DNA from: an uncultured Mucispirillum sp.
GTDB lineage: Bacteria > Chrysiogenota > Deferribacteres > Deferribacterales > Mucispirillaceae
Reading direction: 5' to 3'
Assembly: GCA_944325215.1 (NCBI GenBank)
Contig: CALUZC010000017.1
Coordinates: 1-64,000 of the forward strand
DNA length: 64,000 nt
Position 1 is the first letter of the stretch; every line of letters starts with the position of its first letter. Positions 13,634 through 25,722 of the stretch are shown here, piece after piece. Both the position numbers and the translations under genes were made by a program. The notes beneath the pieces were generated by a model. That model searched no databases, was not told where the DNA came from, and saw nothing but the letters and a program-made list of their open reading frames with translations.

Positions 13634-14236
13634 AATATTTAATCCTAAAATAATAAATATTACACCAGATATTTTATTTAAATAGCTTGAAAAATTTGAT
13701 GTTCTTAAAGATGAAGAAATATAAGATGATGCTGCGACTAAAAATAAACTCCAAACCGTTCCTATAGCAATAAATGTTAAACCTAATATTAGAAATGGAA
13801 CAGGTGTAGAAGCATTAATGTTTACAAACTGGGGAAGAAGTGCTAAAAAAAATAAAGCTACTTTAGGATTTAATATATTTGTAAAAAAACCCTGTCTAAA
13901 TGTTTTTTTAATGGAAACTGTTGCTTTTTCTGATGATATAATAATATTAGATTTTGATTTAATAGCCATTATGCCAAGATATATTAAATATGCTGCACCT
14001 GCAATTTTTACAATATTAAAAAGTAAAGATGAAGTCATTAAAATAATAGATAAACCAAAAGCAGCTAAAGCCGTATGAACAAATAACCCACAAATAATAC
14101 CAGCAACTGAAGCAAACCCCTGCTTGTATCCACCAGCTATTGATTTTGTCAGTATAAATATAGTATCAGCACCCGGTGTTATGCTTAAAATAATTACAGC
14201 TCCAATAAAGCCTAAATAATCCGTTATATTTTCCAT
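13616..14236 (-). CDS. LysE/RhtB-family amino-acid exporter
   Basis: Inner-membrane exporter of 206 residues with about six membrane segments. Family hallmarks: the N-terminal block SITPGADTIFILTKSIAGGYKQGFASVAGI, then AGAAYLIYLGIMAIKS and FRQGFFTNILNPKVALFFLALLPQFV. Members expel amino acids such as threonine, homoserine or leucine; the substrate is not predictable here. Its start touches the stop of gspF (one shared base), so it may be co-transcribed as the last gene after gspC-F. It converges with and overlaps the ThiE-like gene. Confidence 0.9.
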   Translation of the reverse strand: MENITDYLGFIGAVIILSITPGADTIFILTKSIAGGYKQGFASVAGIICGLFVHTALAAFGLSIILMTSSLLFNIVKIAGAAYLIYLGIMAIKSKSNIIISSEKATVSIKKTFRQGFFTNILNPKVALFFLALLPQFVNINASTPVPFLILGLTFIAIGTVWSLFLVAASSYISSSLRTSNFSSYLNKISGVIFIILGLNILRIKN

Positions 14237-15435
14237 TACTGCACCAAAGAATTCATAGAGAATAAAGGCTGCATTATTGATATTACAATAAAACCAACAA
14301 GCACACCTATTATAACAATAAATATAGGCTCAATAGCCGAAATAAATGATGTTAAAAATTTATCTACATTTTTAGAATAAAATTCATTTACACGTTCTAA
14401 AAGTTCAGGCATATTACCTGAAGATTCACCAGTTGATACCGCTGCTGGAAAAAGCTCTGGAAAAATCCCTGCATTTCTAACTGCTACTGAAAATTTTGTT
14501 CCAGACTGAACAGCCTCCCTTACTTGAGCAATAGTATCATACATATATTTATTATCTATTACTAAAGATGCATAATGAAGTGCATCTGTTAAAGGCAGCC
14601 CTTCTTTTAGCTGAAATGATAAAACATGTGCAAATTTGGCAACAGATACATGGGAAATAAGGTTTATCTTAAAAAGCTTTTTATCAACTGCTAACCTAAA
14701 TTTTGGATTATTTTTATATAAATACCTGATAGCAAATATAATAAATAATAAAAATAATAATAGTACAAGCCCATAATTACTTACAAAATCAGATACTTTT
14801 AATAAAAACTGAGTAGAAGCTGGTATCTGCTGTTTCATAGATGAAAAGATTGATTCCATTTTTGGAACAACAAAAGCAAGTAAAAAGCCAAGAACAGCAA
14901 AGCCCATTACAAGTATAGTCATAGGATATATCATAGCCGTTTTTATTTTGTCTGTATTTTTCCTTTTATCATCTTCATAAACTGCAATATCTGCTAAAAC
15001 TGCTGCAAGTTTACCAACCTGCTCTGATGCTTTAATTAAATTTACATACATTGGATCAAATATTTTTGGGTATTTAGATAAACTTTCTGAAAAACGCATA
15101 CCTTCAGACACTTTTGAAGCAGATTCCATTAAAGCATTTTTCAAATGCTGTTCTTTCGTGCTTTTTGCAACTATTTTCACTGCTTCTACCAAAGGAATAC
15201 CACTTCTTAAAAGTAATGAAAGCTGAAAAAAAGTATCTGATAAGTTTAATTTTTTTGCAAACATTTCCTGCAGCTTTGCTAAAGATGAACTAGATGAGCC
15301 TGATTCTGTAATGCTGGAAACAAAAATCCCTTCTGATAAAAGCTCATTAGTAAGAGACTGCTTGCTTAATGCATCACGGACACCTTTTACTTCCTTTCCT
15401 GTTTTTGATATTCCTTTATAAATATAACTTGGCAT
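14236..15435 (-). CDS. gspF: Type II secretion inner-membrane platform protein GspF
   Basis: Polytopic core of the inner-membrane assembly platform that couples the GspE ATPase to the pseudopilus. There are 399 residues with two T2SSF repeats (FFQLSLLLRSGIPLVEAVKI at about 69-90 and FAHVLSFQLKEGLPLTDALHYA at about 268-290). Each is followed by membrane segments, the last at about 370-392 (IEPIFIVIIGVLVGFIVISIMQP). The N-terminus MPSYIYKGISKTGKEVKGVRDA is canonical. Shares one base with gspE upstream and with the RhtB exporter downstream. Confidence 0.95.
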   Translation of the reverse strand: MPSYIYKGISKTGKEVKGVRDALSKQSLTNELLSEGIFVSSITESGSSSSSLAKLQEMFAKKLNLSDTFFQLSLLLRSGIPLVEAVKIVAKSTKEQHLKNALMESASKVSEGMRFSESLSKYPKIFDPMYVNLIKASEQVGKLAAVLADIAVYEDDKRKNTDKIKTAMIYPMTILVMGFAVLGFLLAFVVPKMESIFSSMKQQIPASTQFLLKVSDFVSNYGLVLLLFLLFIIFAIRYLYKNNPKFRLAVDKKLFKINLISHVSVAKFAHVLSFQLKEGLPLTDALHYASLVIDNKYMYDTIAQVREAVQSGTKFSVAVRNAGIFPELFPAAVSTGESSGNMPELLERVNEFYSKNVDKFLTSFISAIEPIFIVIIGVLVGFIVISIMQPLFSMNSLVQ

Positions 15436-16886
15436 TAATCAACCTTTGTAACAGAAAGCACTTCTGAAGGGGTAGTAATACCCTTTTCAACTAATGACGC
15501 ACCATATTCAAACATGGTCCTAAACCCTTCTTTCCTTGCTGCCTCTTTAATATCATAACTTGATGCTCTTTTATTTATTAAAACACGCAAGCTGTCAGTA
15601 ATTTCAAGCATTTCAAAAATACCAATCCTGCCACGATAGCCTGTATTAAAACAGTTTGGGCAGCCCTTACCTGCCATGTATTTATCAATAGTTATACCAG
15701 CTTTAGCAAAGGTGGATTTTATAAAATCATCTGCCTGCACTTCTTCCTGACAGTGTGGACAAATTTTACGAACAAGCCTTTGACCTATTACAATAGCAAG
15801 TGATGAGGAAATTAAAAATGGCTCAACTTCCATTTCTATTAAACGTGCTATTGCTGTTGGTGAGTCGTTTGTGTGCAGTGTAGATAAAACCAAGTGACCT
15901 GTCAATGATGCCTGTATGGCAGCTTCTGCTGTCTCATTATCCCTAATTTCACCAACAAGTATAATATCTGGGTCCTGCCTTAAAAAAGTTTTAATGGCTT
16001 GGGCAAATGTTAAATTAACAGCAGGGTTCATTTGCACCTGCGTAACATTATCAATATGGTATTCCACTGGGTCTTCTATTGTTACCACGTTTTTATTATC
16101 CCTGTTCATAGCAAGCAGTGATGCATATAAAGTTGTTGTTTTACCACTACCTGTTGGACCTGTTACTAATATAATACCATTTGGCCTGTCAAGATATGGG
16201 CGAAATCTTTCATAAAGTTCACCATCTAAACCTATCTGCTGCAAAGATGTAAAATCTGAAGAACGCTCTAGTATCCTTAAAACTGCCTTCTCACCGTTAA
16301 TAGATGGCATAGTAGATACACGAATATCTATAACTCTGTTACCAATTTTTAAATTTATCCTGCCATCTTGAGCACGCCTTGTTTCTGCCACATCAAGCTG
16401 TCCAATAACTTTAATACGTGCTAAAATTGGATCATGAACACTTTTTGGATATGTTTTTAAGGTATTTAAACAACCATCTACTCTAATGCGAATTAAAAAT
16501 GCTCCATCTCTGCCTTCAAAATGAATATCACTGGCACCATTTTTAACAGCACTAATTATTATTTGGTTTACAAGACGAATAACTGGTGCGTCATCATAAG
16601 AAGAAGTTAAGATATTTGCGTCATCATCAATATCATCACTTTCTTCTGCTGTTACATCATCAACTTCTCCACCAAAGCTTTCTAAAATCTCTAATATATG
16701 TTTTTTTTCTGCATATTCATAATCAGGGGATATGCCTAGAGAAAAGCTCATAAATTTAGCTTTTTGCAGCCCATGTTCATCACTGTAAAAAAACTTTACT
16801 TTATCATCTTCTTCCACAGGAACAAAATCACTTTTATCAGGAAATTTCATGTAATGAGCTCTTACTTTCTCAAACTCAGCATTCAT
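15435..16886 (-). CDS. gspE: Type II secretion ATPase GspE
   Basis: Cytoplasmic hexameric ATPase that powers pseudopilus assembly. 483 residues. The ATPase core has Walker A GPTGSGKTT (about 246-254), Asp box VVTIEDPVEYHID, Walker B DPDIILVGEIRDNETAEAA and the His box SLTGHLVLSTLHTNDS. A zinc-finger insertion has CPHC and CPNC about 30 residues apart (about 376-410). The N-terminal GspL-binding region is short and carries an acidic stretch (EESDDIDDDA). Three bases separate it from gspD. Confidence 0.96.
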   Translation of the reverse strand: MNAEFEKVRAHYMKFPDKSDFVPVEEDDKVKFFYSDEHGLQKAKFMSFSLGISPDYEYAEKKHILEILESFGGEVDDVTAEESDDIDDDANILTSSYDDAPVIRLVNQIIISAVKNGASDIHFEGRDGAFLIRIRVDGCLNTLKTYPKSVHDPILARIKVIGQLDVAETRRAQDGRINLKIGNRVIDIRVSTMPSINGEKAVLRILERSSDFTSLQQIGLDGELYERFRPYLDRPNGIILVTGPTGSGKTTTLYASLLAMNRDNKNVVTIEDPVEYHIDNVTQVQMNPAVNLTFAQAIKTFLRQDPDIILVGEIRDNETAEAAIQASLTGHLVLSTLHTNDSPTAIARLIEMEVEPFLISSSLAIVIGQRLVRKICPHCQEEVQADDFIKSTFAKAGITIDKYMAGKGCPNCFNTGYRGRIGIFEMLEITDSLRVLINKRASSYDIKEAARKEGFRTMFEYGASLVEKGITTPSEVLSVTKVD

Positions 16887-16888
16887 TA

Positions 16889-19096
16889 CTATTCACCTTG
16901 ATTTTCCTGATTTGCAGGCTCTATTGTAATAACTTCTGAATTATTATTTTCTTCCTGCTTATTATTTTCTTCCACACTACCATCAACAGCTACTGGAGTA
17001 AGTAACTGATTATTTTCTTTTACTTCTTTTGCACTATTTTTTTCTTTTTCAGCTTTTTTCAATGCTTTTTGACGCTCTTTTTCAAGACGTTTTGCTTCTT
17101 TTTCTCTATCTGCTTTTTCTTTATCACGCTGCCTTTGTGTTTTTTTAGCTTCTTCTGGAGTTAAGCCTTCTATATCATTTTTCAGCTGTATTGACCTGCC
17201 AGTATCAGTAAAGGAACCTTTACTAAATTCTTTATCACCCTGCCTGTTAAAATCTTCCATTGTAGCACGTTTACCCTGCATTAATTTGTCATTATCTTCT
17301 ACAGTATCAATAATATGTGCAGTTATAAAAAGCATAACATTTGTTTTTTGGGTACTTGTTGTCTGTTTCTTAAAAAGCCAGCCAAGTATAGGAATATTAG
17401 AAAGCCCCGGAACCCCAGATACTGTTGTGGTAGAATCATCTTTTATCATACCTGAAATTACCATAATGGAATGGTTTTTAAGTTTAACAGTAGTATTTGT
17501 ACTTCTTGTAAGGGTAGTAGGTGCAGTAGAACTTGCTGCAGAACCTGATACCTTTTTTATTTCCTGTTCTATAGTTAGTGTAACCATATCATCACTTGAT
17601 ATTTGAGGCGTTACTTTTAATTTTACACCAACATCTCTATAATCAAATGTTTGAATCGGGTTATTATTTGAATCATATTTTGTACTTGTTTGATAAGGCA
17701 TATTTTCACCAACAAATACTTCTGCAGGTGAATTATTTAACGTTAAAATTTGTGGATTTGAAATAATATTTATACCACTAGAAGTTCTAAGTGCTGAAAT
17801 TAAAGCACCAATAGATGGAAATTTTGCACCTTGAAATGATATAATATTACCAATAACACCAACACCAAGCCCAGTTCCTAGCCCTGTAAGTGATGGGGCG
17901 CCTTGATTAATAGAACCAAGAATACTGCCAAGACCACCTCCTCCGCCCTGCATGGAGCCACCTACTATAGTGCCAGATGTATTACCACCACCTAAAAACC
18001 ACTCAACTCCAAATTGTGAGCTTTTATCTATACTTGTTTCTAAAATTAAAGCTTCCACATAAACCTGTCTTCTAGGCACATCAAGTTTATTGATTAAAGA
18101 ATCTAAATTATCATAAAGCTCTTTATCACCTATGGCTAAAATAGAGTTCGTTGCATTATCTGCAGATATGCTGACCTTTGATGATGCTGTAGTAGTTGCA
18201 ACAGCACCTGCTGCCCCTGCTGCACCCGGTTTTTGAGAAAGAGATGTTACAAGTTTTGATAATACTTTCTCCACATCTTCTGCCCTTGCATTTTTTAAAT
18301 AAAAAACTCTAGGTTCTGTATTAACTGCCATACTCTTTGTATCAAGGTTAGATACAATAGCCGCAATTCTGTCATAATCTTTTTTTGTGGCTGCTATTAT
18401 CAATGTGTTTGAAATATCATCAGATATAACAACAGGTGATGTTGGATTTATAGAGTTTTTTGCAAGCTCATTGAAAAATTTGGTAATTTGCTGTTCAATT
18501 TTGCTGGCAATAGAATATTCCAGTGGCATCGTATAAAACTCATAGCCTGCTGCCACATTATCAACCCTATTAATTAATGAATTCATTTTTTCTATTCTTG
18601 AAGCATCATCTCTCACAACAATAATATTTAAGCCACGAACAACTTCCACATAACCAGTTTTTGATTTCATTCTATTTAAAACAGGAAGTAATGTGGCTGC
18701 ATTATAATTCTTTAAAGCAATTACCGTAGTAATATACCCATAAGAACCATTTTTGCCCATTGATAAATCTTCATCAAAAGATTGAATATCTTTTTCTGCA
18801 ATAATTTGAATACTGTCACCTTTTGTTACAGGCTGATATCCATTTAATTTTAAAACAGAATAAAAAATATCTAAAATTTCTTTTGCGTCCATATTTTTTT
18901 GGGAAGATATGGTTACATTGCCTCGTAAATCAGCCTCATTGTATATAACATTTTTACCAGTAAATTCTGATACAAACGTTATAAAATCTTTCATGGGAAC
19001 ATTTTTAAAATTAACTGCATAAGTCCCATTATCTTGAGCATAAGCATTAAAACTTAATAATAATGCAAAAATAACTATAAATATCTTTTCTTTCAT
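16889..19096 (-). CDS. gspD: Type II secretion secretin GspD with charged C-terminal tail
   Basis: Outer-membrane secretin channel, 735 residues. A signal peptide (MKEKIFIVIFALLLSFNAYA) is followed by N0 (KNVPMKDFITFVSEFTGKNVIYNEADLRGNVTI), then N1-N3 domains. A Gly-rich gate region at about 370-420 (GGGGGLGSILGSINQGAP) and the secretin core (INIISNPQILTLNNSPAEVFVGENMPY, VSGVPGLSNIPILGWLFKKQ) follow. After about residue 610 comes a roughly 120-residue Lys/Glu-rich, probably coiled-coil tail (KKTQRQRDKEKADREKEAK...) replacing a recognisable pilotin-binding S domain. No pilotin gene is seen in the locus. Overlaps gspC by 4 bases. Confidence 0.95.
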   Translation of the reverse strand: MKEKIFIVIFALLLSFNAYAQDNGTYAVNFKNVPMKDFITFVSEFTGKNVIYNEADLRGNVTISSQKNMDAKEILDIFYSVLKLNGYQPVTKGDSIQIIAEKDIQSFDEDLSMGKNGSYGYITTVIALKNYNAATLLPVLNRMKSKTGYVEVVRGLNIIVVRDDASRIEKMNSLINRVDNVAAGYEFYTMPLEYSIASKIEQQITKFFNELAKNSINPTSPVVISDDISNTLIIAATKKDYDRIAAIVSNLDTKSMAVNTEPRVFYLKNARAEDVEKVLSKLVTSLSQKPGAAGAAGAVATTTASSKVSISADNATNSILAIGDKELYDNLDSLINKLDVPRRQVYVEALILETSIDKSSQFGVEWFLGGGNTSGTIVGGSMQGGGGGLGSILGSINQGAPSLTGLGTGLGVGVIGNIISFQGAKFPSIGALISALRTSSGINIISNPQILTLNNSPAEVFVGENMPYQTSTKYDSNNNPIQTFDYRDVGVKLKVTPQISSDDMVTLTIEQEIKKVSGSAASSTAPTTLTRSTNTTVKLKNHSIMVISGMIKDDSTTTVSGVPGLSNIPILGWLFKKQTTSTQKTNVMLFITAHIIDTVEDNDKLMQGKRATMEDFNRQGDKEFSKGSFTDTGRSIQLKNDIEGLTPEEAKKTQRQRDKEKADREKEAKRLEKERQKALKKAEKEKNSAKEVKENNQLLTPVAVDGSVEENNKQEENNNSEVITIEPANQENQGE

Positions 19097-19989
19097 CTAA
19101 TTTCCACAAATAAGGATTTTTTTTCTTTATTTCTAAGCATATCAACATTTAATGCTGATATATCATCAACTTGAGAAAACATATTAAATAATGCAGCAGG
19201 GTTTGTAAGCTCACTGCCATTAATTCTTGTTATTATATCGCCAACTTGCAGCCCTAACTTTAGTAAAGGTGATTCTGGTTTTAACATTGCTACCCTATAT
19301 CCTACAAATTGACCATCTTCATAAAATGTTGCAACGCGGGCACTTTGCAGCACCTGATTAATATCTTTTAAGTCATTTTTAAGCTCATCTCTAGGCACTG
19401 TAATATTTATATTTGCACCAGTATCCTGTATCTTAACACCTGTATTTTGTGCTGATGCCATAGGTGTCTGTGGTGCTGGAATGGACTGAACTACTGCTCC
19501 ATTATCAATAACTATTGAATATATTTTACCATCTTTTGCTATATTTGCAAAGCTGTATGATAATTCAATAAGTTTTATACCCTCTTTTTCTCCACCTAAA
19601 GATATGCTTATTGTTCCACTATCAAGAACAATTGTGGCAATACCAGTATTATTAACCTCATCAAAAATTACACCAATAAGCTTAGCGTTAAATGGTGGTG
19701 CTGGGTTTAGTGGAGCACCACTAGAATTTAAAACCATACTACCATTATCACCTGTTTGAGAAGCAGCTGTAAGCCTAGGTGTAATATCAAGCATAAAAAC
19801 ATTTTTATCAATAATATCTGATGCTGTCTTATTATAATCAATCTGTTGTTTTTCTACCTTTTTTACTCTAGGAACAGGAAGCGGTTTTGGTGCTGTATAT
19901 ATACTGCTTGTAATGGCAGAAACTAAATACCCACAAGCTATACCTATTACCACAGGATAAACAAGGTACGGTAGTTTAAAATTAACCAT
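19093..19989 (-). CDS. gspC: Type II secretion protein GspC with PDZ domain
   Basis: Links the inner-membrane platform to the secretin. 298 residues. One N-terminal membrane segment (about 8-28), a proline-rich linker, and the homology region (PFNAKLIGVIFDEVNNTGIATIVLDSGTISISLGGE) that binds GspD N0. The C-terminal PDZ-like domain contains PESPLLKLGLQVGDIITRINGSELTNPAALFNMF. It heads the gspCDEF block and lies 45 bases downstream of the CPBP protease gene. Confidence 0.9.
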   Translation of the reverse strand: MVNFKLPYLVYPVVIGIACGYLVSAITSSIYTAPKPLPVPRVKKVEKQQIDYNKTASDIIDKNVFMLDITPRLTAASQTGDNGSMVLNSSGAPLNPAPPFNAKLIGVIFDEVNNTGIATIVLDSGTISISLGGEKEGIKLIELSYSFANIAKDGKIYSIVIDNGAVVQSIPAPQTPMASAQNTGVKIQDTGANINITVPRDELKNDLKDINQVLQSARVATFYEDGQFVGYRVAMLKPESPLLKLGLQVGDIITRINGSELTNPAALFNMFSQVDDISALNVDMLRNKEKKSLFVEIR

Positions 19990-20034
19990 GTTATATGATG
20001 TATCAATTATTTATATAAAAATCAATTATTTTTT

Positions 20035-20478
20035 TTATTGTATTAATATTATTTTCATAATAGACGGAAACAAATCTACAGGATAATTAATAAACACAAT
20101 AATATTTAATATGCTGTGGGCAAAAAAAGGCTGTTTTATGCTTTTGTATTGGTCATATAAAATCCCTAAATATATAGATGGTATAAATATTAAAGTGGTT
20201 ACAATAAAATTACTGTCTGCTACAAAATGGCAGGCTGTAAAAATTATTGATGTTATAATATTACTTAAAGTAATATATGAAAAAAATGTATATTTTATAT
20301 ATTTTTGTATATTTTTTTGAACTAAACCCCTAAATATATATTCTTCTACTAATGGAGAAGCAAATAAGAATAAAATAATATTGTATACACTAATATTTTT
20401 AACTCCATAAAAAGCTATGCTTATAATATACACAAGTATTATAATATATAAAATAATATGTAACGATTTACTGTTCAT
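20035..20478 (-). CDS. Small CPBP-family (glutamic-type) intramembrane protease in the T2SS locus
   Basis: Integral membrane protein of 147 residues with four or five hydrophobic segments. The CPBP (CAAX protease/Abi) active-site pattern is intact: E45-E46-x3-R50 in PLVEEYIFRG, H84-F85 in TACHF, and H121-x3-N125 in HSILN. It is shorter than the usual 200-280 residues and consists of little beyond the catalytic core. It is the first gene on the leftward side of the divergent T2SS locus, 45 bases before gspC and in the same direction. CPBP enzymes called myxosortases are known to process C-terminally anchored T2SS-dependent proteins in other bacteria. A similar job is only inference here. No clear ribosome-binding site. 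Confidence 0.78.
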   Translation of the reverse strand: MNSKSLHIILYIIILVYIISIAFYGVKNISVYNIILFLFASPLVEEYIFRGLVQKNIQKYIKYTFFSYITLSNIITSIIFTACHFVADSNFIVTTLIFIPSIYLGILYDQYKSIKQPFFAHSILNIIVFINYPVDLFPSIMKIILIQ

Positions 20479-20578
20479 ATTACACTATAATATAAATTAT
20501 AATAAATTTAAATGATTTATTGATTTTTAAATAATCTTATGATACTTTCTTAAAAATATAGTTTGTAAGGAGAAATAC
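20479..20578. promoter_or_regulatory. Shared divergent promoter region of the T2SS locus
   Basis: A 100-base, very AT-rich gap between the leftward CPBP/gspC-F genes and rightward gspG-N. The minus strand carries TATAAT-like boxes close to the CPBP start. The plus strand has TTGATT followed 17 bases on by TACTTT, a weak promoter, and AAGGAG for gspG. Both halves could be co-regulated from here; the elements are weak individually. Confidence 0.35.
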
Positions 20579-21028
20579 ATGAGAAAAAGAAAAATGCGTC
20601 CCGGTTTTACCTTAATAGAGCTTATGGTTGTATTAGTTATATTAGGTCTTTTAGCTACATTTATTGGTCCTCAAATAATGAGTGCACCAGATAAAGCAAG
20701 AGTTTCAAAAGCAAAGAATGATATAACAGTATTAAAAAATGCCATTGAATTATACAGGGCAGAAAATGGTAACTACCCTACAACAGATCAAGGCTTACAA
20801 GCTCTTGTCGTAAAACCGGAAATTGACCCTGTTCCTAGCAGCTGGAGCCCTGGTGGTTATTTAAACTCACAAGTTGTTCCTAAAGACCCTTGGGGAAGAG
20901 ATTACATTTATAGAAGCCCTACTGAAGATGAAAACAGACCTTATGAAATTATAACATATGGTGCAGATGGTCAGGAAGGTGGCGAAGAATATAATGCTGA
21001 TATTACAAGCTACAATATTGTTAAATAA
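20579..21028 (+). CDS. gspG: Major pseudopilin GspG
   Basis: Main subunit of the type II secretion pseudopilus. There are 149 residues with prepilin cleavage site [25 protein letters not shown] (G at residue 9), N-methylated Phe and Glu at +5. The C-terminal part has the GspG signatures [23 protein letters not shown] and [15 protein letters not shown], ending in the GADGQEGG calcium-loop region. AAGGAG precedes the ATG. First gene of the rightward gspG-N block and followed by an intrinsic terminator, which would make it the most highly transcribed gene of the set. Confidence 0.97.
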
Positions 21029-21036
21029 ATTATTCT

Positions 21037-21066
21037 GGGGCAAGGTTTAACCTTTCCCCCTTTTTT
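21037..21066 (+). terminator. Intrinsic terminator between gspG and gspH
   Basis: GGGG-C-AAGG, loop TTTAA, CCTT-T-CCCC, then C and six T (21061-21066). The C/T pair is an internal mismatch in an otherwise 8-bp stem. The ATG of gspH follows directly after the last T. It probably makes readthrough partial, so that the minor pseudopilins and platform genes are expressed below gspG. Confidence 0.85.
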
Positions 21067-21498
21067 ATGTATATGAAACAAGCATTTACTTTAATAGAAT
21101 TAATGATTGTTATGCTTATTATAGGCATAGGGCTTATGAGTATAACACCTAGATTTACTTCAAAAAGCGTAGGCATAGACCCTCGTCTTGAATATTTAGA
21201 TAAATTAATAAAAGAAGAATGGGCACGTTCCATTGAGTTAGGACAGCCTATTGCAATTACTGGTTTTAAAGGAAGTGCAAACCTTTTAAATCATGATAAG
21301 GAAAGTAAAACCCTGCCTGATACAAAAGAAGTAAGTGAAGTATCCATTAATAAATATGAAGTGCGAAGCAATGAATATGCTATTAGAGTATATCCCGATG
21401 GGTTTTGTGATTATTTTGAATTAACATTAAATGATGGACGGATAATTGAATCTATCCCACTTTTAATGACAACCAGGTATAAAAATGAAAACCAATAA
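21067..21498 (+). CDS. gspH: Minor pseudopilin GspH
   Basis: 143 residues starting MYMKQAFTLIELMIVMLIIGIGLMSITP; an ATG two codons later (21073) is an alternative start. The cleavage-site residue before Phe is alanine (KQA|FTLIE) rather than the usual glycine. The remainder has a small beta-rich domain typical of GspH, including EWARSIELGQPIAITGF. The upstream sequence is the C-run and T-run of the terminator, so no Shine-Dalgarno sequence exists for either start. Overlaps gspI by 14 bases. Confidence 0.85.
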   Translation: MYMKQAFTLIELMIVMLIIGIGLMSITPRFTSKSVGIDPRLEYLDKLIKEEWARSIELGQPIAITGFKGSANLLNHDKESKTLPDTKEVSEVSINKYEVRSNEYAIRVYPDGFCDYFELTLNDGRIIESIPLLMTTRYKNENQ

Positions 21499-21862
21499 AA
21501 AAGTAAAAAAAGGATTTACACTTTTAGAAGTTTTGATTGCTTTAGCAGTTTTAAGTATAAGCATACTTGGAATTTATTCTATTCAAAATATGTCATTAAA
21601 TGCCATTGCATCTTCTAAAGCAAAAATGTTTGTAATAGAAAGAGCATATGATAGAATTACAAGGCAGATTAATTTTCCTGATAAAGCATTTGAAGAAACA
21701 GAAGATTATAATGGTACATTAGTTCATTACTCATTTTTAAAAGAAGCCTCAGGCGTTCAAATGGTGCAGAAAGTTACAATGACAGTTTCCACAGATCAGG
21801 CTACAGTTAGTTTTATATATTATGAAAAAGCCAGTGGAAGCAGCTCTGGGTTTGGTATGTAA
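21485..21862 (+). CDS. gspI: Minor pseudopilin GspI
   Basis: Tip-complex pseudopilin of 125 residues with a class III signal KKG|FTLLEVLIALAVLSISILGIYSIQNM. The body has the GspI pattern of paired residues after the helix (AKMFVIERAYDRITRQINFP) and ends in a short Ser-Gly tail. An AGG ribosome-binding site lies inside the end of gspH. Its stop overlaps the gspJ start by one base. Confidence 0.9.
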   Translation: MKTNKKVKKGFTLLEVLIALAVLSISILGIYSIQNMSLNAIASSKAKMFVIERAYDRITRQINFPDKAFEETEDYNGTLVHYSFLKEASGVQMVQKVTMTVSTDQATVSFIYYEKASGSSSGFGM

Positions 21863-22383
21863 TGAAAAAAGGGTTTACTTTATTTGAATTATTAATTGCT
21901 GCTGCTATTTCATCAATTGTGGCATTAGGTTTATTTTCCATTTTTTCTTCAGTTGTCACCACGAGAGATAGAGCTGTTGTTCAAAGTAAAAATATTGTGC
22001 TGCAGCAGTCATTAACAAGGCTTATTAATAAAGATGCAAGAATGATGCAGGGCGATTCTATTAAGGTAGATAAATCTGGGCAGGTATACAGGCTTACTTT
22101 TACTACACAAAACAGCTTAAGGTTTAATAAAGCTTTACCTGTTGATGTAACATATTATATTGATGATGAAAATTATCTTGTAAGAAAAGAAGAAAATGCA
22201 GATACTGCCTTTAGTATGGAAATGCGCATATTACCTAATGCATCTGAATTATCTGCTACATTTTATGATGGAAGTGAATATAAAGAAGATGCAGTAGCAA
22301 ATGCAAAAATGTTTAATATTTCATTGAAAATTAATGAGCAGCTGATAACTATTCCAGTTGCAAGGACGATGGATAATACATAA
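21862..22383 (+). CDS. gspJ: Minor pseudopilin GspJ
   Basis: 173 residues with cleavage site MKKG|FTLFELLIAAAISSIVALGLFSIFSSVV. The downstream part (LQQSLTRLINKDARMMQGDSIKV, then LRFNKALPVDVTYYIDDENYLVRKE and RILPNASELSATFYDGSEY) follows the GspJ beta-domain pattern. It sits between gspI and gspK as in other T2SS loci, starting on the gspI stop. Confidence 0.9.
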   Translation: MKKGFTLFELLIAAAISSIVALGLFSIFSSVVTTRDRAVVQSKNIVLQQSLTRLINKDARMMQGDSIKVDKSGQVYRLTFTTQNSLRFNKALPVDVTYYIDDENYLVRKEENADTAFSMEMRILPNASELSATFYDGSEYKEDAVANAKMFNISLKINEQLITIPVARTMDNT

Positions 22384-23295
22384 ATGAATAAAAATATGAA
22401 AAAAGGTTCCATTTTAGTTACAGTTATGGTTGTTGTAACAGCCTGCACATCGCTGGCTCTTTTTATTAATGAAAAAACACTTGCTGCCTATGGAACTGTT
22501 ATAAGTCTGCAAAATGATTACCAAGGGGCAATTTATGCCATGACTGCCATTGAAGCTTTAGAAATGGCGTTTCAATATGATGAAGCTTCATATGATGCAG
22601 CTGATGATATATGGACACAAATACCTACTATCCCGCTTGATAATGGATTTATGACAATTACAATGAAACCACTTAATGCTAAAGTGCCTATGGCTACTTT
22701 AAACTCAAAAGATGAAGATGTAAAAGAAAGAGCAACAAATGCATTAAATGAATTAATGAGACAGTTAGAAATTACAGAGCCAGATATATATGAACTTTTA
22801 ACATGGGTTGGTGCAAGTGATCCAACAGGTGAACGTTTTGATGAAAATGGAGCCCCCTACAGCATGAAATCTGCTCAGTTACAAACTCTAGCAGAGCTTG
22901 CCCTGCTGCCTTCATTTCAAACAGACTATAAAAAATTAATACCTTATATTTCTATTGCAGGAGACGGTAATAAAATAAATGTAAACCTTGCTTCAAAAGA
23001 AGTAATTGATGCATACGTTCCAGAACTTGCCCCTTATACAGACCAAATAATTTCTACAAGAGAAACAGAACCTTTCAAAGATGTTTCTGCTGTATATAAT
23101 ATAATGGGAGCAGCCATGCAGGACGAATATAGTAAAATTTTACCATATATTGATGTAAAATCTTCTTTATTTTATATTAAAATTGAATTAAATATAGGAG
23201 ATGATAATATATACTATCATCTGCTTGTTCAAAGAAATGGCAGCAGTGTATCACCTTTAAAATATATAGAAGGTAATAATATAGATTATTTTTAA
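22384..23295 (+). CDS. gspK: Minor pseudopilin GspK
   Basis: 303-residue tip pseudopilin, the large one of the set. The prepilin-type leader is MKKG|SILVTVMVVVTACTSLALFI, with Ser instead of Phe at +1, and no Glu at +5, as is usual for GspK. The alpha domain contains NALNELMRQLEITEPDIYELLTWVGASDPTGE and the helix-hairpin-helix-like GDGNKINVNLASKEVIDAYVPEL. It immediately follows gspJ with no gap. Confidence 0.9.
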   Translation: MNKNMKKGSILVTVMVVVTACTSLALFINEKTLAAYGTVISLQNDYQGAIYAMTAIEALEMAFQYDEASYDAADDIWTQIPTIPLDNGFMTITMKPLNAKVPMATLNSKDEDVKERATNALNELMRQLEITEPDIYELLTWVGASDPTGERFDENGAPYSMKSAQLQTLAELALLPSFQTDYKKLIPYISIAGDGNKINVNLASKEVIDAYVPELAPYTDQIISTRETEPFKDVSAVYNIMGAAMQDEYSKILPYIDVKSSLFYIKIELNIGDDNIYYHLLVQRNGSSVSPLKYIEGNNIDYF

Positions 23296-23318
23296 ATAAA
23301 TTGGAGAAATAAAAGTTT

Positions 23319-24323
23319 ATGGACCATAACTACTACTTTAAAGAAGGGCTGCTTTATAAAATTACAGGCAGTTCCACATATAGAGTTAGTGTTGAAGATG
23401 TAATAAATGACAGTAATAAAGCTGCTTTATTAATTGATGATACGTATTTTTTCTATGTAGGAATTGAGCATATTGCAACAAGTGCTAAAAAAATGAAAGC
23501 AATTGCACAAAACTACCTTAATGTTATGTTCCCTGCTGATATGGTTGCTAATTATGGAGTATTTCAAAATACTTCTAAAACTGTTATATATATTATAAAT
23601 AATAATTTAATTGATATTATTAATAATAACAAAGAACTTTTTTCATCTTTTAAAAAAATATCAACACCTTTTTTAGAGTTTTGCACTAAATATAATGAGT
23701 TTATTTTTTCAGATGGAGAAAAAAAATATTCTTTATCTAACAATATGGTTACTCTTTCAGACAATAAAGATAGTGACTTTATTACATCAAAAGATTTATT
23801 TGATACTTTAGATACTGTAAAATATTCCATAATACTGCCAGGTGTTCAAAAAAAATCACCTATTAATCTTCCTATTGCATTACCTGCAGCATTATTATTT
23901 ATAATATATATTTTTTTCATAATTGGCTATATTAGTGAAATATCAGCAAATAACAGGTTAAATAAATACTATGAAGATGCTCTTGCAAAAGTTTATACTA
24001 ATTTAGGTGTTGCCTCATCAAAGGACCCATACGGTTCACTTATACAACAGTCAAAATCTGTTTCAGGTGGCTCATCTTCCAAAAGAATACTAAGTATATT
24101 AAATGATTTAAATAATGCAGCAGTTAGTGGAGTTATTTTTGAAGGTATAAATATTAGAGATAATGATATTAGAATATCTGGAACAGCCTCTGATTTTGCC
24201 CAAGTTGAAGAAGTGAAAAAAAATATGGAAAACCAGCTGCAAAATTCTATTAATATTGATGATACAAAAAAATCAAAAGATGGCATTACTTTTACAATGA
24301 AGTATGAAAAGGACAGTAAATAA
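23319..24323 (+). CDS. gspL: Type II secretion platform protein GspL-like
   Basis: 334 residues, expected to recruit GspE to the membrane. An N-terminal cytoplasmic domain of about 185 residues is strongly diverged from the actin-like fold of GspL. One membrane segment follows (about 190-210, ALPAALLFIIYIFFIIGYI). The periplasmic part ends in a ferredoxin-like domain (RILSILNDLNNAAVSGVIFEGINIRDNDIRISGTASDFAQVEEVKKNM), typical of GspL C-termini. Identification rests on this layout and the position between gspK and gspM. Ends one base before the chosen gspM start. Confidence 0.78.
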   Translation: MDHNYYFKEGLLYKITGSSTYRVSVEDVINDSNKAALLIDDTYFFYVGIEHIATSAKKMKAIAQNYLNVMFPADMVANYGVFQNTSKTVIYIINNNLIDIINNNKELFSSFKKISTPFLEFCTKYNEFIFSDGEKKYSLSNNMVTLSDNKDSDFITSKDLFDTLDTVKYSIILPGVQKKSPINLPIALPAALLFIIYIFFIIGYISEISANNRLNKYYEDALAKVYTNLGVASSKDPYGSLIQQSKSVSGGSSSKRILSILNDLNNAAVSGVIFEGINIRDNDIRISGTASDFAQVEEVKKNMENQLQNSINIDDTKKSKDGITFTMKYEKDSK

Positions 24324-24324
24324 C

Positions 24325-24993
24325 ATGGAAAAACTAAAAGAAATTTTTCATAAATTAAGAACTACAGAAATAAATTTAAAAGATTTAAAGTTATCATCTG
24401 TAAAAGATAAGTTAAAAAATATTAAATTAGCTGATAATACGCAGCAAACTAGTATTAAGTTTAATATTAAAAACTTAAAAAATATATCATTACAGGATAT
24501 TAAGACCTTTGATTATAAGAATTTTTATATTCAAAATAAACAACAAATATTGACTATATTTGTTGTAATAATGAGTATATTTTTTCTTTTTTACTGGACT
24601 AATTTATTTTTAAGTTCAAAACTTGCATCTTCCATAGAAAAGGCTGATAATACATATAAAAAACTTGAAAATGTTGCTAATATGGCAGGTCAAATTCAGT
24701 TTGCAAAATCAAGAGGCGTAAATGCTATGAATCAAAGCCTTTTAGTATTTATTCAAAATACTGGCTCGTCAATAGGTATATCTGATAAAATAATTAATTT
24801 ACGCCCTATTAGTGCTTCTAAAGGCATAGAACATGTTTCATTAAGAATGGAAAACTTATATTATGATGAATTAATTAATTTTATTAGAGATATTGAAAAG
24901 TATGATAATCTTTCAATTAAAGTTATTACTTTTAATAAAAGATACGATAATCCAAAAATGATTGATGCTTCACTTGAAGTAGTAAAAATGTAA
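24325..24993 (+). CDS. gspM: Type II secretion platform protein GspM-like
   Basis: 222 residues from the ATG at 24325, which has AAGGA upstream; the open frame reaches 24304 inside gspL. A Lys/Asn-rich cytoplasmic segment of about 70 residues is unusually long for GspM and contains near-repeats (LKDLKLSSVKDKLKNIKL, FNIKNLKNISLQDIKTF). One membrane segment follows (ILTIFVVIMSIFFLFYWTNLFL), then a periplasmic ferredoxin-like domain (HVSLRMENLYYDELINFIRDIEKY). Assigned by position and topology. Confidence 0.75.
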   Translation: MEKLKEIFHKLRTTEINLKDLKLSSVKDKLKNIKLADNTQQTSIKFNIKNLKNISLQDIKTFDYKNFYIQNKQQILTIFVVIMSIFFLFYWTNLFLSSKLASSIEKADNTYKKLENVANMAGQIQFAKSRGVNAMNQSLLVFIQNTGSSIGISDKIINLRPISASKGIEHVSLRMENLYYDELINFIRDIEKYDNLSIKVITFNKRYDNPKMIDASLEVVKM

Positions 24994-25002
24994 AGGTAGA
25001 AT

Positions 25003-25722
25003 ATGAATAAAAAACAAATTATCTTTTCCGTAATTGCTTTTTTTGCAGCTTTTTTAATTACTATTATAATTAAATTTCCATTAAATGCAGTTGTTACTAA
25101 TATTATTACAGATACTGTTCAAAATAAAAAAATAGATATTAGGTATGATAGTATAAATGTTACATTTTTCGGTGCCACTGCTACAAACGTTAAAACAGGT
25201 CCATTAGTAATTAGTAATTTAGAGCTTGATTATAACCCACTGGGTTTATTATTTAAACGAGTTGCTTTTAAAGCTGATTCCACTGCATTCAATTTAACAG
25301 GAAAACTTAGCGGCAGTAAAGTAAATGCTGATATAAAAGGATATATTGCCACACTTGCCCAAATGGGTAACATGACAGGCAGTGGTTCATTTAACAGTAA
25401 TATTACATATAATATTAAAGATGAAACAGGAAAAATTACATTAGATGCACCAAATAAAGTAACTTTTAACCACCCCTTAATGCCTATTGCAGTTGATAAT
25501 ATAAAAGCTGAAGCAGATATAAATAAAAATAAACTTACTATTAATAATTTTTCTGCAACAGGCAGTAATTCATTAAAAGTTACTGGTTTTGTTGATTTAA
25601 ATAAACAAAAGATAGATACTTCTATCTTAAATATTCAAGGGGAAGCTTCTATGGGAAATTTCCCACTGAAATTTACATTAACAGGTCCTGCTAGAATGCC
25701 TAAAGTGGCATTGGTTAAATAA
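25003..25722 (+). CDS. gspN: Type II secretion protein GspN
   Basis: 239-residue inner-membrane-anchored periplasmic protein. It has an N-terminal membrane segment (IIFSVIAFFAAFLITIIIKFPLNAVV) followed by a beta-rich AsmA-like domain with repeated strands (LVISNLELDYNPLGLLFKRVAFKAD, NKLTINNFSATGSNSLKVTGFVDL). This is the pattern of GspN, an accessory T2SS component found in some lineages. It ends the gspG-N operon; the SDR gene starts 17 bases later. Confidence 0.8.
   Translation: MNKKQIIFSVIAFFAAFLITIIIKFPLNAVVTNIITDTVQNKKIDIRYDSINVTFFGATATNVKTGPLVISNLELDYNPLGLLFKRVAFKADSTAFNLTGKLSGSKVNADIKGYIATLAQMGNMTGSGSFNSNITYNIKDETGKITLDAPNKVTFNHPLMPIAVDNIKAEADINKNKLTINNFSATGSNSLKVTGFVDLNKQKIDTSILNIQGEASMGNFPLKFTLTGPARMPKVALVK

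Follow-up and report, generated by a model that had tools for sequence, protein, structure and literature searches.

A predicted MrtJ-family sorting protease encoded in the type II secretion locus of Mucispirillum and its relatives in the class Deferribacteres

What would an intramembrane protease do at the head of one arm of a type II secretion (T2SS) locus? The question is raised by mrtJ (20035..20478, minus strand), a small gene in a 64,000-nucleotide stretch of DNA from an uncultured Mucispirillum sp. (GenBank assembly GCA_944325215.1, contig CALUZC010000017.1, positions 1 to 64,000), referred to hereafter as the window. An earlier note had described a 147-residue membrane protein with a full set of CPBP motifs, encoded between gspC-F and gspG-N of a divergent gsp locus, and both parts of that description were confirmed. 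The reading frame is intact and gives a predicted membrane protein of 147 aa from an ATG, in which the EExxxR, H and HxxxN motifs of CPBP proteins are all present (E45-E46-x3-R50, H84 and H121-x3-N125, respectively). The product scored 58.9 bits against the Pfam Rce1-like model PF02517 (cut-off 22.4) and was the only match to that model in the 2.55-Mb genome. On its own strand it is followed after 45 bp by gspC, and the divergent gspG lies 100 bp away on the other side.

The NCBIfam model for MrtJ (NF033192) gave 75.6 bits against a cut-off of 75, a narrow pass, and scores among relatives in the class reached 97 bits. The next-best models were those of other myxosortase (Mrt) families, all far under their own cut-offs. 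In an alignment of 29 relatives, eleven positions were invariant (P42, E45, E46, F49, R50, F80, H84, G105, Y108, H121 and N125), and these include all of the catalytic positions. A homologue with 63% identity is carried by a Mucispirillum MAG in GTDB (single-protein scan). Within Mucispirillum, dN/dS for mrtJ was mostly about 0.14-0.43, and the two sequences compared nearest to the window gave 0.20 (dS about 0.5); the gene is under purifying selection. AlphaFold2 modeled the protein with a mean pLDDT of 90.8 and a pTM of 0.81. A Foldseek search of the PDB with this model returned no significant match and no match to Rce1, the top rows being meaningless, and a profile of MrtJ had zero matches among PDB sequences. 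As no significant structural match was obtained, the fold evidence is neutral. Judged from its sequence, the gene at 20035-20478 encodes an intact glutamic-type (CPBP) intramembrane protease of the MrtJ family. MrtJ is the predicted sorting protease of the JDVT-CTERM system (Haft 2024, cited in PMC11980579) and a sister of MrtX, a myxosortase whose activity has been shown by experiment.

The leftward arm of the locus reads mrtJ, gspC, gspD, gspE, gspF and the rightward arm gspG through gspN in order. Eight of the genes (gspC, D, E, F, G, K, M and N) were assigned by models, several of them under curated cut-offs. On the minus strand, gspC (19093..19989), which adjoins mrtJ in most relatives, scored 99.9 bits against NF041515 GspC_delta (cut-off 150); the secretin gene gspD (16889..19096) scored 160.6 bits with Pfam Secretin and 452.4 bits with TIGR02517; the ATPase gene gspE (15435..16886) 426.7 bits with PF00437; and gspF (14236..15435) 179.4 bits with PF00482. 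On the plus strand, the divergent arm starts with the major pseudopilin gene gspG (20579..21028; TIGR01710, 169.5 bits against 88.85), and further along are gspK (22384..23295; NF037980 GspK, 91.2 bits, E 8e-26, cut-off 130), gspM (24304..24993; PF04612 T2SSM, 29.7 bits against 27.8) and gspN (25003..25722; TIGR04411 GspN, 54.2 bits against 50). By E-value gspC and gspK are clear, yet both fall below their curated cut-offs. The remaining four genes, also on the plus strand, were assigned from weak matches and position: the minor pseudopilin candidates gspH (21067..21498; N_methyl 29.1 bits, gspH model 26.7, under the cut-off of 80), gspI (21485..21862; N_methyl 36.5 bits, gspI model 31.6, under the cut-off) and gspJ (21862..22383; gspJ model 31.9 bits, under the cut-off), and the gspL-like gene (23319..24323; PilN domain 21.8 bits and a weak match to a GspL model). 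These matches argue that positions 14236-25722 of the window hold a complete set of T2SS genes C through N, GspO aside. A published Mucispirillum genome paper listed no T2SS parts beyond T2SC-T2SG and suggested either a T2SS that does not function or a pilus (PMC5285517). The window corrects that statement, as each gene from C to N has a homologue or a candidate in it.

Sixty relatives were searched for MrtJ. A match was found in all Mucispirillum genomes unbroken at the locus and in most of the order and class; MrtJ was missing from G002 and G008 as an effect of contig ends. The conservation between gspC and gspG that the earlier note had proposed to look for was seen as direct adjacency to gspC in families f1, f3, f6, f8 and f9, mostly with the divergent gspG on the other side. 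Throughout the class Deferribacteres, the T2SS locus thus includes mrtJ as a conserved component. In G006, a single-contig Mucispirillum genome (L183, 3300-3820), the frame is open across all catalytic motifs and a poly-A tract puts the expected ATG out of frame, which could reflect a sequencing error, the use of a different start, or slippage.

In the relatives, unrelated secreted proteins were found to end in a common tag composed of a GGC-S motif, a hydrophobic helix and an Arg-Lys basic end. When 50 relatives were searched with the JDVT-CTERM model (NF033191), the presence of MrtJ not being a condition, such C-terminal tags appeared in many of them and nine genomes had matches above the curated cut-off. 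A custom tag model built from 27 tags was run across 60 genomes, and the matches read out at E < about 0.003 were all at ORF ends. A signal peptide was visible in nearly all tagged ORFs whose N-terminus fell within the stretch examined. The tagged proteins included trypsin, subtilase, cadherin-like, DUF4465, IgGFc-binding, Ig-like and LRR families; a single tail type shared by secreted proteins of unrelated families is the pattern expected of a sorting signal. A subtilase of G048, from the same phylum and another class, also ends in a tag-like GGCG, helix and RPRR tail (L068, 1498-3069), although searches of its genome yielded neither MrtJ nor any Mrt-core protein.

Among class genomes at least 85% complete, 30 had both MrtJ and the tag, 2 had MrtJ only, none had the tag only and 10 had neither (Fisher 4e-8); in other words, the tag was present in 30/32 genomes with MrtJ and in 0/10 without intact MrtJ. 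When carriers of a T2SS alone were counted, the figures were 30/32 and 0/5 (p 5e-5). Both p-values ignore the relatedness of the genomes and overstate independence, and the tag model drew partly on counted genomes, the first tag search having been unconditioned on MrtJ. The two exceptions, G030 and G046, are MrtJ genomes at least 85% complete in which no detectable tag was found. MrtJ presence follows the tag, not the T2SS. A tagged secreted family that accompanies the protease had been anticipated by the earlier note, and together with the conservation of the gene in gsp loci this count supports its proposal that a reduced sorting protease, connected with the T2SS, acts on a C-terminal tag.

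That note had also suggested a processing factor for the secretion apparatus, and such a maturation or quality-control enzyme, cutting for example GspC, a pseudopilin or GspN in place of clients, would suit a gene that adjoins gspC and is conserved within the locus. However, the same divergent gsp locus is found in G018 (f5) and G033 (f7) with gspG directly next to gspC and no mrtJ, and the tag-model search of the 60 genomes found no tag in either. The retention of divergent gsp loci without mrtJ in two families indicates that MrtJ is not needed for keeping a T2SS. In a gspD tree, the MrtJ-less G027 and G033 stood beside the MrtJ-bearing G028 and the MrtJ-less G018 stood elsewhere on a long, unsure branch, placements that make at least two separate absences of mrtJ likely. 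Genomes of family f4 keep tags although their mrtJ is unlinked from the gsp genes, and the distribution of MrtJ tracks the tag rather than the T2SS. Because orthologous gsp loci persist without mrtJ, a role in the apparatus is disfavoured, and we consider it very unlikely.

The same distribution bears on a second alternative, that MrtJ is a general CPBP protease engaged in bacteriocin self-immunity, peptide processing or regulated proteolysis and is linked to the tag by shared ancestry only. CPBP proteins do have many roles, every genome compared is related, and the tag-like C-terminus in G048 occurs without a detectable Mrt enzyme. Against this, the MrtJ model is the best match by far, one tag is found on unrelated proteins, and tag and enzyme were lost jointly in several lineages. 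One of these is represented by G023 (L182, 1250-1740), in which a frameshift splits mrtJ, gspC-F are intact and no tag was found. Likewise G028 has T2SS, MrtJ and tag, and its congener G021 is without all three. We regard a general protease as most improbable, and sorting of tagged clients is the reading followed below.

Rhombosortase and its GlyGly-CTERM tag (as in VesB of Vibrio) resemble the Deferribacteres system in that a C-terminal tag is carried by T2SS clients, trypsin-like proteases among them. In contrast to MrtJ, rhombosortase is a rhomboid serine protease unrelated to CPBP proteins, and the GlyGly-CTERM tag lacks an invariant Cys. MrtS and its Synerg-CTERM tag offer another short CPBP sorting protease, but the window protein reached only 38.8 bits against the MrtS cut-off of 130. 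A search of this genome for Synerg-CTERM gave nothing real and no tag over cut-off. MrtX of Myxococcota and its MYXO-CTERM tag share the CPBP core and the invariant tag Cys; MrtX carries additional helices at its N-terminus and serves dozens of clients, whereas MrtJ consists of the core alone and has one or few. Experiments in Myxococcus established that MrtX cleaves the Cys tag of TraA and that TraA needs the T2SS to reach the surface, and lipidation of the cysteine before the cut was proposed, not demonstrated (Guo, Haft and Wall 2025, PMC11980579). The closest system is MrtJ/JDVT-CTERM itself: the window protein passes the NF033192 cut-off, tags of several relatives exceed that of NF033191, and the tags are alike in being tripartite and containing Cys. 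That system is described as a sporadic one-enzyme, one-client gene pair of beta- and gamma-proteobacteria (Haft 2024, cited in PMC11980579). In the Deferribacteres, by contrast, mrtJ is found in the T2SS locus class-wide, client genes lie apart from it and often number several, and in Mucispirillum the tag scores under the curated cut-off.

Already known are the family of the enzyme, the kind of tag and, for the sister system, the link to the T2SS. The earlier note's claim of an undescribed system with an unnamed tag was therefore too strong, the enzyme being MrtJ (NF033192) and the tag either a member of JDVT-CTERM (NF033191) or a derivative of it. NCBI annotation may already name some of the proteins because several pass its cut-offs. 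As far as the literature examined shows, what is new is the presence of mrtJ in the T2SS operon class-wide, the occurrence of several clients encoded away from it, and a Mucispirillum version with a single client whose tag has diverged. No description of mrtJ in a T2SS operon was found in that literature, a mention in the founding paper (Haft 2024) being possible, nor was any earlier link of the MrtJ family or its T2SS tie to Deferribacterota. Gene order and patterns of loss here connect a predicted sorting protease family with the T2SS.

We propose that MrtJ is very probably a minimal sorting endopeptidase within the T2SS operon that trims the Cys tag of secreted clients and so leads to their anchoring at the surface. 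Sec would bring secreted proteins into the inner membrane, where the C-terminal tag would halt them by means of its GGC-S motif, hydrophobic helix and basic cytoplasmic end. The tag cysteine would probably be lipidated by a housekeeping enzyme ahead of the cut. MrtJ, with E45 and H84 as the predicted water-activating pair and H121 and N125 as the predicted oxyanion hole, would cut just past the invariant cysteine, and the T2SS would then move the freed, lipid-tailed protein to the outer surface, where it would be anchored. We infer cleavage, lipidation, anchoring and the order of the steps from MrtX and TraA. The location of mrtJ within the gsp operon agrees with an order of Sec export, MrtJ cut and T2SS transport, and it would allow enzyme and exporter to be inherited together and probably made together.

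The sole client recognised in this Mucispirillum would be a 526-aa LRR protein encoded elsewhere in the genome (G000:C20:14567-16147), on contig C20; mrtJ is on C17, and client and enzyme are not adjacent. The protein has a signal peptide, its N-terminal part is rich in Cys, its leucine-rich repeats are internalin-like, and it ends in the tail PGGCSIAKGKSTGSDIIIILAFLILVFKAVKYIGRKIW, in which a Gly-Cys motif, a hydrophobic helix and a basic C-terminal end make up a JDVT-CTERM-like tripartite Cys tag. This tag scored 12.1 bits against NF033191 (cut-off 27), under the curated threshold. In a hold-out model from which family f1 was left out, it ranked second in its own genome at E 0.64, and by that measure it is not independently detected. 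With the tag peptide alone as query, the own genome returned only the self-match. These sub-threshold scores would suit an ordinary single-pass anchor, MrtJ acting on something unrecognised. As the tag is so diverged, its identity rests on orthology with LRR proteins in sister genera. A protein search showed that the orthologues in families f1 and f4 end in a Gly-Cys-Ser, helix and basic tail; those in sister genera carry intermediate or more typical, clearer tags, and in every Mucispirillum genome that has the gene the protein retains the Gly-Cys-Ser core, the helix and the basic end. A scan of 464 kb, made up of the window and 400 kb from elsewhere in the genome, revealed no further tag, and the genome-wide tag-model search gave no other candidate client. 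G006, whose genome is complete, has exactly one tagged protein. Against this evidence an ordinary anchor is unlikely, and we retain the LRR protein as the candidate client.

On balance we think it likely that, in the Deferribacteres, the sorting protease is a standing member of the T2SS operon and the tag divides clients into released and anchored ones, with Mucispirillum reduced to one enzyme, one internalin-like LRR client and a private tag. If so, the Mucispirillum pair would be among the smallest sorting systems of its kind. The analysis thereby identifies a probable surface protein in a bacterium that lives in gut mucus, and a minimal pair of one enzyme and one client suits testing what modifies the tag cysteine.

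Two features were noted in the surroundings of the LRR gene on contig C20. Downstream of it, a 61-aa and then a 151-aa ORF (L003, 2077-2730) resemble by eye a HicA/HicB-like toxin-antitoxin pair. At a distance of 1.4 kb downstream lies the gene for a predicted 550-aa lipoprotein (G000:C20:17593-19245) with RCC1-like repeats of the form LYAWGxNxxGQLGVGD.
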